From the NCBI RefSeq assembly GCF_020532555.1, contig NZ_JAJBBR010000004.1:248001-312000 (forward strand): a stretch of DNA of 64,000 nucleotides. Reading direction: 5' to 3'. Of the stretch, positions 19,408 to 35,184 are shown piece by piece. The notes beneath the pieces are model-generated. The model saw only the letters and a program-made list of their open reading frames with translations, ran no database searches and had not been told where the DNA came from. This DNA is from Microvirga lenta. Lineage in GTDB: Bacteria > Pseudomonadota > Alphaproteobacteria > Rhizobiales > Beijerinckiaceae. Position numbers and translations under genes: made by a program. Each line of letters begins with the position of its first letter. Positions within the stretch are counted from its first letter, which is position 1.

Positions 19408-20391
<984 letters not shown>

Positions 20392-20412: not shown

Positions 20413-20435
20413 AAGGCGGCTTCGGCCGCCTTTTT
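20413..20435 (+). terminator. Intrinsic terminator of cysK
   Basis: GGCGGC (20415-20420), TTCG loop, GCCGCC (20425-20430), then TTTTT. It lies about 25 bp after the cysK stop. Confidence 0.9.
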
Positions 20436-20468: not shown

Positions 20469-20493
20469 AGAACCTCTCCGACGCGGCCGGGTT
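20469..20493 (+). promoter_or_regulatory. Possible EcfG-type (general stress) promoter
   Basis: AGAAC at 20469-20473, 16 bases, then GGTT at 20490-20493. The alphaproteobacterial general-stress sigma factor EcfG recognises GGAAC-N16/17-CGTT, so each half has one mismatch. It is placed correctly to transcribe the hydrophilic-protein cluster. Confidence 0.3.
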
Positions 20494-20519
20494 CTCCTTG
20501 AAACATCGGGTTCAAGGAG
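20494..20519 (+). promoter_or_regulatory. Hairpin enclosing the ribosome binding site of the first small gene
   Basis: CTCCTTGAA (20494-20502) is the exact complement of TTCAAGGAG (20511-20519), with an 8-base loop ACATCGGG. The right arm contains the AAGGAG Shine-Dalgarno of the gene starting at 20526, so the folded mRNA would hide it. This is the layout of a simple translational switch such as an RNA thermometer. A DNA-binding site is the alternative. Confidence 0.55.
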
Positions 20520-20525
20520 TTCATC

Positions 20526-20888
20526 ATGGCGGACCGGAAGGCACCCCATTCCCTGAAAGATCAGACCGCGGACCAGATCCGCAACGAGCAGCGCGGCGGC
20601 ATCGACAGCCCCATCGATCCCAACCGGGACGGCGGTCCGGAGGGCAACGCGACCCTGCGCCGGGTCTGGAGCCAGCCGGGCGGCGAGGCCTACAATTACC
20701 GCCAGGGCCAGACGGGCCAGACCAGCAATGCCGGGTTCGACGGTCATGACGAACTCACCGCCGCCGAGACGCCCGAGACCACCAAGCACTTGAGCGACGC
20801 CAGCCTCTCGCCGGACGACAAGGATGCGACGGCCGAAGCCATCGCGCGCGCCACGGCCGTCAACGGCGACGACAAGGGCAAGGGCTGA
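20526..20888 (+). CDS. Small hydrophilic, probably disordered protein (1 of 5)
   Basis: 120 residues, MADRKAPHSLKDQTADQIRN to NGDDKGKG. It lacks cysteine, has one Trp and no long hydrophobic segment, and is rich in Asp, Glu, Gly, Ala, Asn, Gln and Thr. No known domain is recognised; the composition fits hydrophilins, which protect macromolecules during desiccation or osmotic stress. AAGGAG lies 6 bases before the ATG, inside a hairpin. It is the first of five tandem genes; the next starts 5 bases after its stop. Confidence 0.75.
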   Translation: MADRKAPHSLKDQTADQIRNEQRGGIDSPIDPNRDGGPEGNATLRRVWSQPGGEAYNYRQGQTGQTSNAGFDGHDELTAAETPETTKHLSDASLSPDDKDATAEAIARATAVNGDDKGKG

Positions 20889-20893
20889 GATCC

Positions 20894-21118
20894 ATGTCCC
20901 GAAAGAATGACGACCCGATGAATCGGGAAGGCGGCGCAAGGGTGGATGCCCAGCCCGACGCCGAGGCGAAGATCCGGTCCCAGCTTCCGGGCAATCCCGC
21001 CGTCGACGGCTCGTCGGGCGCGCATTCCGACCGGATCGGCTCCCGGGGTGCGGAAGACGACCGCAAGGCCGCCGAGGGAAGCGGCGATACCGAACAGAGC
21101 CACCGCGAACGTTCATGA
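20894..21118 (+). CDS. Small hydrophilic, probably disordered protein (2 of 5)
   Basis: 74 residues, MSRKNDDPMNREGGARVDAQ to TEQSHRERS. It has no Cys, Trp, Phe or Tyr; charged and small residues dominate. It begins 5 bases after the first gene and lacks a strong ribosome site of its own (GGGCTGAGA), which suggests translational coupling. No domain recognised; a hydrophilin-like role is inference. Confidence 0.65.
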   Translation: MSRKNDDPMNREGGARVDAQPDAEAKIRSQLPGNPAVDGSSGAHSDRIGSRGAEDDRKAAEGSGDTEQSHRERS

Positions 21119-21133
21119 CGTAAGGAGAGCCCT

Positions 21134-21370
21134 ATGGGCAATGCAGGTTACGGCAACCACACCGAAGATCACGTCGATCCCGAGGCCGGTCGCACGTCCT
21201 CGCCGGAGAAGAATTCCGGCAGCCAGAGCGGACAAGGCAAGCAGGGCGATGCTCCGCCCGCGGCCGGGCCGCACAGCCAGCCGTCCCTCACGAACCCGGA
21301 CGCGACCCCGGGCACCGGAGCCCTGACGCCTCCGGGCGCGGACGAGGGCACGGATTCCGTGACCGGATGA
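21134..21370 (+). CDS. Small hydrophilic, probably disordered protein (3 of 5)
   Basis: 78 residues, MGNAGYGNHTEDHVDPEAGR to GADEGTDSVTG. It is rich in Gly, Pro, Ser, Thr, Asp and Gln, with one Tyr and no Cys or Trp. A clear TAAGGAGAG ribosome site lies 7 bases before the ATG, 15 bases after the previous stop. No domain recognised. Confidence 0.65.
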   Translation: MGNAGYGNHTEDHVDPEAGRTSSPEKNSGSQSGQGKQGDAPPAAGPHSQPSLTNPDATPGTGALTPPGADEGTDSVTG

Positions 21371-21388
21371 CGGACAAAGGAGAAGGTA

Positions 21389-21706
21389 ATGGCAGGAAAA
21401 GATCAGCAGGAGCCGAAGGTGCCCACCGAACGCCCGGACCCTGAAGTCGCCGACCGCAAGCCCGAAGGCGGCGGCGAAGACCGTCCCGGCTTCGACCTGG
21501 GCGGAGCCTCGCCCGAGAACGAAACCGGCGTCGGCTCGAGCACCATTCCGGGCGGCCCGCGGGGCAGCGTTTCCAACGGCACGGATGCCGGCGGCCGCGC
21601 GACCGGCCTTTCCGATCCGAGCGGCTCGCGCTCCCTCGGCAACGAGGGCGATGCCGGCTCCGAATCCGGCTCCGGACCCACGGACGGTTCCGGCGGCCCA
21701 TCCTGA
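21389..21706 (+). CDS. Small hydrophilic, probably disordered protein (4 of 5)
   Basis: 105 residues, MAGKDQQEPKVPTERPDPEV to GPTDGSGGPS. Gly, Ser, Pro, Asp and Glu make up most of it; one Phe, no Cys, Trp or Tyr. AAAGGAGAAGG precedes the ATG, 18 bases after the previous stop. Low-complexity runs such as GSESGSGPTDGSGG suggest full disorder. No domain recognised. Confidence 0.65.
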   Translation: MAGKDQQEPKVPTERPDPEVADRKPEGGGEDRPGFDLGGASPENETGVGSSTIPGGPRGSVSNGTDAGGRATGLSDPSGSRSLGNEGDAGSESGSGPTDGSGGPS

Positions 21707-21725
21707 TCGAAACGAGGACAGAACG

Positions 21726-21890
21726 ATGGCTCAATCCGACGACAAGTCCAAGCAGGCGACCGAAAAGGACATCAGCGCCCCGCGGCTGACGCCCCAAGGC
21801 CGCGACGATCCCAGCGCCTCCGGCGAGGATTCCACCGACCCGATGGGCGAGGGCGCCAAGAAGGGGCAGGGCGACAAGGCCGAGGGGTGA
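21726..21890 (+). CDS. Small hydrophilic, probably disordered protein (5 of 5)
   Basis: 54 residues, MAQSDDKSKQATEKDISAPR to GQGDKAEG. It has no aromatic residue or cysteine, and alternating Lys and Asp/Glu. ACGAGGAC serves as a ribosome site. It is the last gene of the cluster, followed by a terminator shared with typA on the other strand. No domain recognised. Confidence 0.6.
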   Translation: MAQSDDKSKQATEKDISAPRLTPQGRDDPSASGEDSTDPMGEGAKKGQGDKAEG

Positions 21891-21951: not shown

Positions 21952-21978
21952 AAAGGCCGCCCTCGAGGGGCGGCCTTT
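21952..21978. terminator. Bidirectional terminator between small-gene cluster and typA
   Basis: AAAGGCCGCCC (21952-21962) pairs with GGGCGGCCTTT (21968-21978). An A-run on the left gives T on the minus strand, and TTT follows on the plus strand, so it can serve both convergent units. Confidence 0.8.
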
Positions 21979-22001: not shown

Positions 22002-23831
22002 TCAGGCGCTGAGCGCTTCCTTCTGCTTCTCGGCGCGCTTGCGGTCGTTCGGGTCGAGGATCGCCTTGCGGATGCGGATCGACTTCGGCGTCACCTCGAC
22101 GAGCTCGTCGTCCTGGATCCAGGCGAGCGACCGCTCCAGCGTCATGCGGATCGGCGGGGTCAGGCGCACCGCCTCGTCCTTGGAGGTCGTGCGGATGTTG
22201 GTGAGCTTCTTGCCCTTCAGCACGTTCACTTCCAGGTCGTTCTCGCGGTTGTGCTCGCCCACGATCATGCCCTGATAGACCTTCCAGCCGGGCTCGATCA
22301 TCATCGGGCCGCGATCTTCCAGGTTCCACAGGGCGTAGGCCACGGCCTCGCCCGAGTCGTTGGAGATCAGAACGCCGTTGCGGCGGCCGGCGATCTCGCC
22401 CTTGTAGGGCTCGTAGGCGTGGAACAGGCGGTTCATGATCGCGGTGCCGCGGGTGTCGGTCAGAAGCTCGCTCTGATAGCCGATGAGGCCGCGGGTCGGA
22501 GCGTAGAACACCAGACGCTGGCGATTGCCGCCCGACGGGCGCATCTCGACCATCTCGGCGCGGCGCTCGGACATCTTCTGCACCACGACGCCGGAGAACT
22601 CCTCGTCCACGTCGATCACCACTTCCTCGACGGGCTCGAGGAGCTGGCCGGTGGCCTCGTCCTTCTCGAACACCACGCGAGGACGCGACACGGCGAGCTC
22701 GAAGCCCTCGCGGCGCATGGTCTCGATCAGGATCGCGAGCTGCAATTCGCCGCGGCCCGAGACGTAGAAGCTGTCCTTGTCGGCGGCTTCCTCGATCTTG
22801 AGCGTCACGTTGCCTTCCGCTTCCTTGAACAGGCGGTCGCGGATCATGCGGCTCGTCACCTTGTCGCCCTCGGTGCCGGCGAGCGGGCTGTCGTTGACGA
22901 TGAACGACATGGTCACGGTCGGCGGATCGATGGGCTGGGCCTGGATCGGGATGTCGTTCTCGGGGGCGCAGAAGGTGTCGGCCACCGATCCCTTCACGAG
23001 GCCCGCGATGGACACGATGTCGCCCGCCTCGCCCACCTCGATGGGCTGACGCTCCAGGCCGCGGAAGGCCAGGATCTTGGACACGCGGCCGTTCTCGACC
23101 AGGTTGCCGTTACGGTCGATCACCTTGATCGTCTGGTTCGGCTTCACGGTGCCGGAGGCGATGCGGCCCGTGACGATGCGGCCCAGGAAGGGGTTGGCCT
23201 CGAGCAGGGTGCCGAGCATGCGGAACGGGCCTTCCTCGGTCTTGGCCGGGGGCACGTGCTCCAGAACGAGGTCGAACAGCGGGGCGAGGCCCTGGTCGCT
23301 CGGCCCCTCGGGCGACTTGGCCATCCAGCCGTTGCGGCCCGAACCGTAGAGGATCGGGAAGTCGAGCTGCTCGTCGGTGGCGTCCAGCGCCGCGAACAGG
23401 TCGAACACTTCGTTGATCACTTCCTGGTGGCGGGCGTCGGGACGGTCGATCTTGTTGATGGCCACGATGGGCTTGAGGCCGATCTTGAGGGCCTTCGACA
23501 CCACGAACTTGGTCTGCGGCATCGGGCCTTCGGCCGCGTCCACGAGGACGATGGCGCCGTCCACCATGCTCAGGATGCGCTCCACCTCGCCGCCGAAATC
23601 GGCGTGGCCGGGGGTGTCGACGATGTTGATGCGGGTGTCCTTCCAGACGACCGAGGTCGCCTTGGCCAGGATGGTGATGCCGCGCTCCTTCTCGAGGTCG
23701 TTCGAGTCCATGGCGCGCTCTTCCACGCGCTGGTTCTCGCGGAAGCTGCCCGACTGCTGGAGCAGCTTGTCGACGAGGGTGGTCTTGCCATGGTCGACGT
23801 GGGCGATGATGGCGATGTTGCGCAGCTTCAT
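22002..23831 (-). CDS. typA: Ribosome-associated GTPase TypA/BipA
   Basis: 609 residues, full length. TypA is a translational GTPase related to EF-G that assists ribosome assembly and adaptation to cold or stress. Visible: [20 protein letters not shown] (G1), [11 protein letters not shown] (G2), [12 protein letters not shown] (G3), NKIDRPDAR (G4), and the C-terminal domain ending [15 protein letters not shown]. It is monocistronic and convergent with the hydrophilic-protein cluster. Confidence 0.97.
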
Positions 23832-33480: not shown

Positions 33481-35184
33481 ATGTCCGCAGCATACCAACA
33501 AGCGCCGAGCCGTGAGGATTTCGCGGCCCTGCTCGAAGAATCCTTCCGCACGAACGAGATCAGCGAAGGCTCGGTCGTCAAGGGTAAAGTGGTCGCGATC
33601 GAGAAGGACGTCGCGGTCATCGACATCGGCGCCAAGACCGAAGGCCGCGTGGCCCTCAAGGAATTCGCAGGCCCCAACCGCGACCAGACGATCAACGTCG
33701 GCGACGAGGTCGAGGTCTATGTCGAGCGCATCGAGAATGCGCTGGGCGAGGCCGTCATCTCCCGTGACAAGGCCCGCCGCGAAGAGAGCTGGGTCAAGCT
33801 CGAGAAGGCCTTCGAGGCCCAGGAGCGCGTCAACGGCGTCATCTTCAACCAGGTCAAGGGCGGCTACACGGTCGATCTCGACGGCGCCGTGGCGTTCCTG
33901 CCGCGCTCGCAGGTCGACATCCGTCCCGTCCGCGACGTCACCCCGCTCATGGGCGTGGCTCAGCCGTTCCAGATCCTCAAGATGGACCGCCGCCGCGGCA
34001 ACATCGTCGTGTCGCGCCGCACGGTCCTCGAAGAGAGCCGCGCCGAGCAGCGTTCCGAGCTCGTGGCGAACCTCGAAGAGGGTCAGGTCATCGACGGCGT
34101 GGTCAAGAACATCACCGAGTACGGTGCGTTCGTTGATCTCGGCGGCATCGACGGCCTCCTGCACGTCACCGACATGGCATGGCGCCGCGTGAACCATCCG
34201 TCCGAGGTCGTAACCATCGGCCAGACGGTCAAGGTGAAGATCATCAAGATCAACCACGAGACGCACCGCATCTCGCTCGGCATCAAGCAGCTCCTGGCCG
34301 ATCCGTGGGAGGGCATCGCCGCCCGCTACCCGGTCCAGGCGAAGCTCAAGGGCCGCGTTACGAACATCACCGACTACGGCGCGTTCGTCGAGCTCGAGCC
34401 GGGCATCGAAGGCCTGATCCACGTCTCCGAGATGTCCTGGACGAAGAAGAACGTCCATCCGGGCAAGATCATCTCCACCTCGCAGGAGGTTGAGGTCGTG
34501 ATCCTCGAGGTCGATCAGGTGAAGCGCCGCATCTCGCTGGGCCTGAAGCAGACGCTGCAGAACCCGTGGGAGGCCTTCGCCGAGAAGCACCCTGTCGGCT
34601 CCGAGGTCGAGGGCGAGGTCAAGAACAAGACCGAGTTCGGTCTGTTCATCGGTCTCGAGAACGACGTCGACGGCATGGTCCACCTCTCGGACCTCGACTG
34701 GAACCGTCCGGGCGAGCAGGTCATCGACGACTTCAAGAAGGGCGACATGGTGCGTGCCCAGGTTCTCGACGTGGACGTCGAGAAGGAGCGCATCTCGCTG
34801 GGCATCAAGCAGCTCGGCGGCGACCCCTTCGCGGAAGCCGGAGAGATCAAGAAGGGCCAGATCGTCACCTGCGAGGTTCTCGAGGTGAAGGACGGCGGCC
34901 TGGAGGTGAAGATCGTCGACACCGACCTCAACACCTTCATCAAGCGCAACGAGCTCGCTCGCGACCGCGCCGACCAGCGCCCCGAGCGCTTCGCCGTGGG
35001 CGAGAAGCTCGATGCCCGCGTCACGCAGTTCGACCGCAAGGCCCGCCGCGTCACCGTCTCCGTCAAGGCCCTCGAGGTCGCTGAGGAGAAGGAAGCCATG
35101 GCGCAGTACGGCTCGACCGACTCGGGCGCTTCGCTCGGCGACATCCTCGGCGCGGCCCTCAAGGCCCGCACCGACAAGAAGTAA
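33481..35184 (+). CDS. rpsA: 30S ribosomal protein S1
   Basis: 567 residues with six S1 OB-fold repeats, for example EGSVVKGKVVAIEKDVAVID near residue 28, GQVIDGVVKNITEYGAFVDL near residue 200, and LKGRVTNITDYGAFVELEPG near residue 290. S1 binds mRNA and helps initiation. The spacing and number of repeats are normal. It starts a plus-strand run with the YkvA-like gene, sppA and ihfB, but ends in its own terminator. Confidence 0.97.
   Translation: MSAAYQQAPSREDFAALLEESFRTNEISEGSVVKGKVVAIEKDVAVIDIGAKTEGRVALKEFAGPNRDQTINVGDEVEVYVERIENALGEAVISRDKARREESWVKLEKAFEAQERVNGVIFNQVKGGYTVDLDGAVAFLPRSQVDIRPVRDVTPLMGVAQPFQILKMDRRRGNIVVSRRTVLEESRAEQRSELVANLEEGQVIDGVVKNITEYGAFVDLGGIDGLLHVTDMAWRRVNHPSEVVTIGQTVKVKIIKINHETHRISLGIKQLLADPWEGIAARYPVQAKLKGRVTNITDYGAFVELEPGIEGLIHVSEMSWTKKNVHPGKIISTSQEVEVVILEVDQVKRRISLGLKQTLQNPWEAFAEKHPVGSEVEGEVKNKTEFGLFIGLENDVDGMVHLSDLDWNRPGEQVIDDFKKGDMVRAQVLDVDVEKERISLGIKQLGGDPFAEAGEIKKGQIVTCEVLEVKDGGLEVKIVDTDLNTFIKRNELARDRADQRPERFAVGEKLDARVTQFDRKARRVTVSVKALEVAEEKEAMAQYGSTDSGASLGDILGAALKARTDKK

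Follow-up and report, generated by a model that had tools for sequence, protein, structure and literature searches.

A conserved cluster of five small, hydrophilic, predicted disordered proteins in Microvirga with a candidate EcfG-type promoter

GsiB of Bacillus subtilis, a repeat-based protein, is a hydrophilin under sigma-B general-stress control. Hydrophilins are characterized by a hydrophilicity index greater than 1, a glycine content greater than 6%, and predicted disorder (PMC7448490). In Acinetobacter baumannii, DtpA and DtpB are described as hydrophilins from a stress gene cluster that support desiccation tolerance (PMC13232832). The general-stress sigma factor EcfG is described as confined to Alphaproteobacteria (PMC3892343), and its targets in Methylobacterium extorquens are reported to carry GAAC-N16,17-C/GGTT, so that a spacer of 17 is accepted as well as one of 16 (PMC4814048).

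We analyzed five consecutive plus-strand genes, here called p1–p5, in a 64,000-nucleotide stretch of the Microvirga lenta genome (the window). As an earlier reading made from the sequence alone (the sequence-only reading) had stated, open reading frames of 120, 74, 78, 105, and 54 codons occupy positions 20526–21890, namely p1 (20526–20888, 120 aa), p2 (20894–21118, 74 aa, a shortened member of its family), p3 (21134–21370, 78 aa), p4 (21389–21706, 105 aa), and p5 (21726–21890, 54 aa). The same reading gave most of them their own ribosome sites, and we found a clear AAGGAG for p1, p3, and p4 and GAGG for p5, while p2 has no obvious site and starts 5 nt past the p1 stop. The mechanical ORF list runs p5 further upstream than 21726, but we favor the start at 21726 because of its orthologs and the GAGG ahead of it. 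The upstream neighbor (19408–20391, plus strand) and the convergent downstream neighbor (22002–23831, minus strand) we take to be cysK and typA, respectively, by recognition of their sequences. A terminator scan placed a terminator-like hairpin after cysK on the plus strand (AAGGCGGC-TTCG-GCCGCCTT then TTTCTTG, 20413–20432), which separates cysK from the cluster. A two-way hairpin between p5 and typA (AAAGGCCGCC-loop-GGCGGCCTTT, 21952–21978) was recognized by eye and not listed by the scan. Given these two hairpins, p1–p5 look like one transcription unit.

Conservation in relatives indicates that these are genes. Of 37 genomes of the genus, 35 carry p1, and none of 24 genomes from other families of the order does. 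Gene order, scored across 48 non-redundant p1 loci, was p1-(p2)-p3-(p4)-p5 in all 41 loci with two or more of the genes, the other seven having p1 only by that method. The sets found were p1-p3-p4-p5 (18 loci), p1-p3-p5 (17), p1 alone (7), p1-p2-p3-p5 (3), all five (2), and p1-p3 (1). Thus p3 was present in 41 of the 48 loci, p5 in 40, p4 in 20, and p2 in five, or eight when the p2 genes of L059, L065, and L066, which this method misses and the p2 profile detects, are added; a p4 match in L053 was removed from these counts because it falls inside the p3 ORF. With p1, p3, and p5 together in 40 of 48 loci, we interpret these three as the core of the cluster and p4 as facultative. Median pN/pS was 0.38 for p1, 0.57 for p2 (five sequences only), 0.46 for p3, 0.39 for p4, and 0.23 for p5. 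In the 25 named Microvirga loci, where typA matched in all and cysK in 24 (ahead of p1, the L052 sequence reads N), the values were 0.229 for p1 (n = 20), 0.366 for p3 (n = 24), 0.295 for p4 (n = 15), and 0.174 for p5 (n = 24), compared with 0.142 for cysK (n = 24) and 0.092 for typA (n = 25). Over-long readings were excluded from the named-loci pN/pS and from the hydrophilin counts below, and in alignment A3 the L030 row starts a few residues ahead of its likely start. Because p1 is widespread in the genus, gene order is kept, and pN/pS is well below 1, we interpret p1–p5 as real genes under purifying selection, and the gene order and synonymous bias for which the sequence-only reading had looked to relatives are both there.

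Figures for the wider spread of the families rest on samples drawn from larger groups. The p1 profile matched 37 of 248 family genomes in 5 of 43 genera (21 of 248 genomes with a single-sequence query), and the p5 profile matched 25 of 248 in the same five genera. Corresponding values were 9 of 199 genomes and 5 of 43 genera for p4, 14 of 189 and 4 of 43 for p2, and 40 of 199 and 15 of 43 for p3. An order-wide search found p1 in 5 and p5 in 2 of 297 genomes. All five genes are adjacent, in the same order as in the window, in genus g60 (L059). In genus g33, p2 directly follows p1 as a pair in L065, L066, L069, and L070 by profile search, preceded by cysK in L065 and L066, and p5 lies on another contig or more than 300 kb away in all eight genomes that have both p1 and p5. 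Two genomes of the window's genus that are without p1 (G012 and G261) keep p3 within 1.5 kb of cysK, with the promoter motif discussed below 55 nt upstream. A third (G005) lacks all five within 1.5 kb of cysK, and its genome gave no match to p1, p3, p4, or p5 in profile searches.

We looked for relationships among the families and for mobility. Common descent by duplication was rejected for the two pairs compared, p3 with p4 and p1 with p2, between which hhalign found no relation. Hybrid p3/p4 genes, seen in L116 and L053, are the sole hint of module exchange among the five. A mobile element was likewise rejected, as a tblastn search with p1 against a plasmid collection (72,556 records) gave no match. 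The same search with p3 matched one record, over residues 42–64. In this record, Aureimonas sp. AU20 plasmid pAU20a, the p3 tail (AGPHAKPELTNPDATPGAGSLP) is part of a 56-aa protein (L185:3944-4114) encoded next to a PAS-domain histidine kinase, so the tail is distributed more widely than the cluster.

The five proteins share a hydrophilin-like composition. Cysteine is absent from all of them, as the sequence-only reading had noted. That reading also described them as nearly free of hydrophobic and aromatic residues. F, I, L, M, V, W, Y, and C together make up 13%, 9%, 8%, 10%, and 7% of p1 to p5, respectively, so p1 is less bare than claimed. The hydrophilicity index, calculated as mean Kyte-Doolittle hydropathy with the sign changed, is 1.20, 1.47, 1.12, 1.10, and 1.51 for p1 to p5, and glycine makes up 11.7%, 12.2%, 18.0%, 23.8%, and 13.0%. 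All five window proteins therefore exceed both hydrophilin numbers, as do 41 of 47 p1 orthologs, 5 of 5 p2, 40 of 40 p3, 20 of 21 p4 (one p4 row being the L053 hybrid), and 40 of 40 p5. We note that these numbers are weak on their own, because among 47 long window ORFs taken as background (mean hydrophilicity 0.43) five pass both as well; these five are Arg-rich by eye and are probably spurious frames.

The charge-hydropathy rule placed all five proteins on the disordered side. A folded domain was rejected for p1 and p5, the two that were folded with AlphaFold2, since no fold was predicted for either (p1, mean pLDDT 55.4, pTM 0.17, shallow alignment of 19 sequences; p5, mean pLDDT 66.5, pTM 0.22, shallow alignment of 13 sequences). 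The claim that the proteins belong to no known family held in searches of Pfam and NCBIfam, which returned 0 families for the five proteins at E up to 1 and 0 for nine distant members at E up to 0.1; models of LEA, KGG/Con-10, and other catalogued stress-protein families in these collections were matched by none of p1–p5. When 19 p1 members were compared with family models, three unrelated weak matches appeared, in one member each, and the p1 profile matched no solved structure at E up to 0.1. A literature search found no description of p1–p5 in the text it covered, which is not proof of absence in print.

Each family has its own strongly conserved motifs. These are APHSL..Q.ADQIRNEQRGG, PGGEA..YR, LTAAETPE.TKHLSDA, and DKDATAEAIERATAVNGK in p1; PKKxDNxVG...GGxQTPEQA...GGSSxGHSD in the p2 family, from which window p2 is missing a 21-residue block (alignment A5); a MGNAGYGNH head and a PAAGPHxxPxLTNPDATPGTGxLP tail in p3; VPTERPDPxxAxRxP...DRPGFDLGG followed by a Gly/Ser-rich tail in p4; and DIxAPRLTPQGRxxP...GEDSTNPMGEGAKKGQxxKAEG in p5. 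The earlier statement that the proteins share composition without clear motifs is thus supported between families, in the two pairs compared by hhalign, but not within them. p5 is the most conserved of the five, with 18 of 54 positions invariant across 13 sequences, and by pN/pS it is nearly as constrained as cysK (0.174 vs 0.142), which indicates that more than composition matters. We consider it surprising that predicted disordered proteins are so constrained in sequence, and in p5 we interpret this constraint as exceeding the needs of a bulk protectant.

Upstream of p1 the sequence reads CCAGAAC-N16-GGTTCT, and it contains a candidate sigma-EcfG-type promoter (AGAAC-N16-GGTT, 20469–20493, plus strand) 57 nt upstream of the p1 start, in which GAAC-N16-GGTT (20470–20493) fits the M. 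extorquens EcfG consensus. For the comparison we took 60 distinct 160-nt regions upstream of p1, excluding any shorter than 100 nt and any that duplicated the final 100 nt of another. AAC-N16-GTT was present in 53 of the 60 (shuffle mean 0.90, largest 3), although these are not 53 independent events because upstream regions within one genus are related. No other spacer from 13 to 21 exceeded 3 of 60. Three of the seven regions without N16 have a spacer of 17 and four have neither. The four are L011, counted as a miss because of a wrong start choice, and L061, L062, and L063 of genus g45, which have no motif directly upstream of p1; in L061 and L063, p1 seems by eye to follow another gene closely. 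Separately, AAC-N12-GTT occurred in 10 of the 60 regions (shuffle mean 1.17). The N16 motif also lies ahead of 7 of 11 p5 copies outside the cluster (shuffle mean 0.10), five times at most 60 nt from the start and twice at 106–116 nt, and one more copy has a spacer of 17. Control regions in the named loci gave AAC-N16-GTT in 0 of 24 cysK and 0 of 25 typA upstream regions, with other spacers in two cysK regions (17) and one typA region (18).

The bare pattern proves little, because it is common in the window, and the argument for a promoter is carried by conservation. GAAC-N16-SGTT occurs six times on both strands of the window, with the p1 site read twice, compared with 2.3 by shuffling, and 5 of 100 shuffles reach six. 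In favor of EcfG control, exact GGAAC-N16-CGTT was found 80 times across the whole genome vs 36 for a reversed control; against it, the −35 of the p1 candidate is AGAAC, not GGAAC. In 38 anchored rows the flanking sequences AAGC.T.GCC and CTCCTT are mostly preserved, unlike the middle of the spacer; since these rows were picked for carrying the motif, only their flanks are informative. A sigma-70 promoter was considered and rejected, as the single candidate (20498–20527) overlaps the p1 start codon and is unconvincing. Elsewhere in the window, two near-identical GAAC-N16-CGTT matches stand 255 nt apart (34107–34130 and 34362–34385), perhaps a repeat inside coding sequence. In genera without the cluster, 2 of 10 p3 loci (L161–L170) carry the motif, both in g45, and L161, L163–L168, and L170 have p3 homologs without AAC-N16/17-GTT in the 160 nt upstream, so the regulation of these homologs may differ.

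The host genome encodes the corresponding regulators. PhyR scored above cut-off (NCBIfam NF006623, and also Pfam), and NepR scored above its Pfam cut-off at six of six places (G000; L186 and L187). The genome, of 4.5 Mb, thus has six NepR-like loci. One locus brings together PhyR, NepR, and an ECF sigma factor, and the genome has a further NepR-sigma pair. The ECF sigma factor beside NepR scored 303.1 bits against its best equivalog, NF009192, below the cut-off of 307, and 247.1 bits against subfamily NF009199 (cut-off 219), and it is on these scores and its neighbors that we use the name EcfG for it. With regard to EcfG regulon membership, both a fitting promoter and a host PhyR/NepR/EcfG-like sigma system were found.

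Taken together, these patterns suggest that p1–p5 are rather likely to be an EcfG-controlled operon of hydrophilin-type protectants, forming one transcription unit of the general stress response. Under stress, PhyR would take the anti-sigma factor NepR, and freed EcfG would transcribe from the promoter at 20469–20493, so that the cell would produce all of these small, soluble, glycine-rich, disordered proteins together. When cells lose water, meet salt, or enter stationary phase, the proteins may serve as hydrophilin-type protectants that prevent the aggregation of proteins and other cellular components. We infer three elements of this reading: EcfG driving the operon, a single transcript, and protection by the proteins. 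Weighing against it are the AGAAC −35, the absence of the motif directly upstream of p1 in g45 and from eight of the ten p3 loci in genera without the cluster, the two cysK control regions with a spacer of 17, the commonness of the bare pattern, the five background ORFs that pass both hydrophilin numbers, the strength of the constraint on p5, and G005. Since each family has its own conserved motifs, the five probably have distinct targets or complementary ways of protecting. Because several of them are strikingly unchanged in relatives, the proteins probably contribute to surviving drying and other stresses, and do so by more than their bulk composition. The hydrophilin-type cluster proposed by the sequence-only reading is thus partly supported, by conserved genes, hydrophilin numbers, absence of a predicted fold in p1 and p5, and a stress-type promoter that it had not noted; on the other side, composition does not account for everything, and p2 and p4 are missing from many loci.

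Other explanations bear on the same evidence. Many long spurious ORFs occur in GC-rich sequence, and p1–p5 could in principle be chance readings of GC-rich intergenic DNA, but homologs are in frame and in order and all five show a synonymous excess, so that conservation and pN/pS rule this out for practical purposes. It is also quite improbable that only some of the five are functional, the cluster then being a loose collection of small ORFs that are acquired, merged, and discarded downstream of a single stress promoter. The presence of p4 in 20 of 48 loci and of p2 in five (eight with profile finds), the shortened window p2, and the p3/p4 hybrids of L116 and L053 could be read in this way. 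However, 40 of 48 loci have p1, p3, and p5 together, p4 is under constraint in the loci that carry it (pN/pS 0.295, 15 sequences), and another genus, g60 (L059), keeps all five in the window's order.

A possible but rather unlikely alternative keeps EcfG control and makes p1–p5 disordered adaptors or regulators, whose motifs would bind defined partners, such as the ribosome, RNA polymerase, a protease, or each other, with hydrophilicity a by-product of disorder. The strongly conserved motifs within each family are consistent with this, as are the p5 pN/pS of 0.174 vs 0.142 for cysK and its 18 of 54 invariant positions in 13 sequences. On the other hand, motifs differ among the five, yet their composition is alike and a single promoter precedes them in the window, as would suit a common physical role, and the neighbors cysK and typA are housekeeping genes that hint at no partner. 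We therefore retain an operon of hydrophilin-type protectants as the preferred reading.

Within the general stress response, a considerable proportion of EcfG-regulated genes in Sphingomonas melonis is described as having no known function (PMC6599016), and the five families of this locus lack a Pfam or NCBIfam model but have a likely regulator. The operon is also a clean test of a question about desiccation proteins, namely whether protection by disordered proteins needs sequence or only composition, because p5 is predicted to be disordered yet is nearly as constrained as cysK. It is conceivable, though doubtful, that five disordered families switched on together by EcfG act via their own short motifs, not bulk composition, as a multi-part stress kit. 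If true, such a sequence-specific disordered kit would represent a separate kind of stress protection in bacteria, and it might build a shared protective condensate or dock onto defined machines.

Compared with described systems, p1–p5 resemble DtpA and DtpB in being hydrophilin-type proteins from a gene cluster, a likeness drawn from the published description. As described, the A. baumannii cluster also holds katE and others, whereas p1–p5 stand without other genes, and because EcfG is confined to Alphaproteobacteria, control of the DtpA/DtpB cluster must differ. With hydrophilins in general, including LEA proteins, p1–p5 share an index greater than 1, glycine greater than 6%, and predicted disorder, but they match no family model and are more conserved in sequence than a composition rule needs. 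GsiB is likewise, putatively, a parallel by description, as a hydrophilin under a general-stress sigma factor, although the sigma factor is different and GsiB is repeat-based, whereas no repeats were noted in p1–p5. Methylobacterium is a genus related to Microvirga. The site upstream of p1 has the promoter consensus of the M. extorquens EcfG/PhyR/NepR regulon in common with it, and just as several NepR (and EcfG) proteins are described in M. extorquens (PMC4814048), several NepR proteins are encoded in the Microvirga genome.
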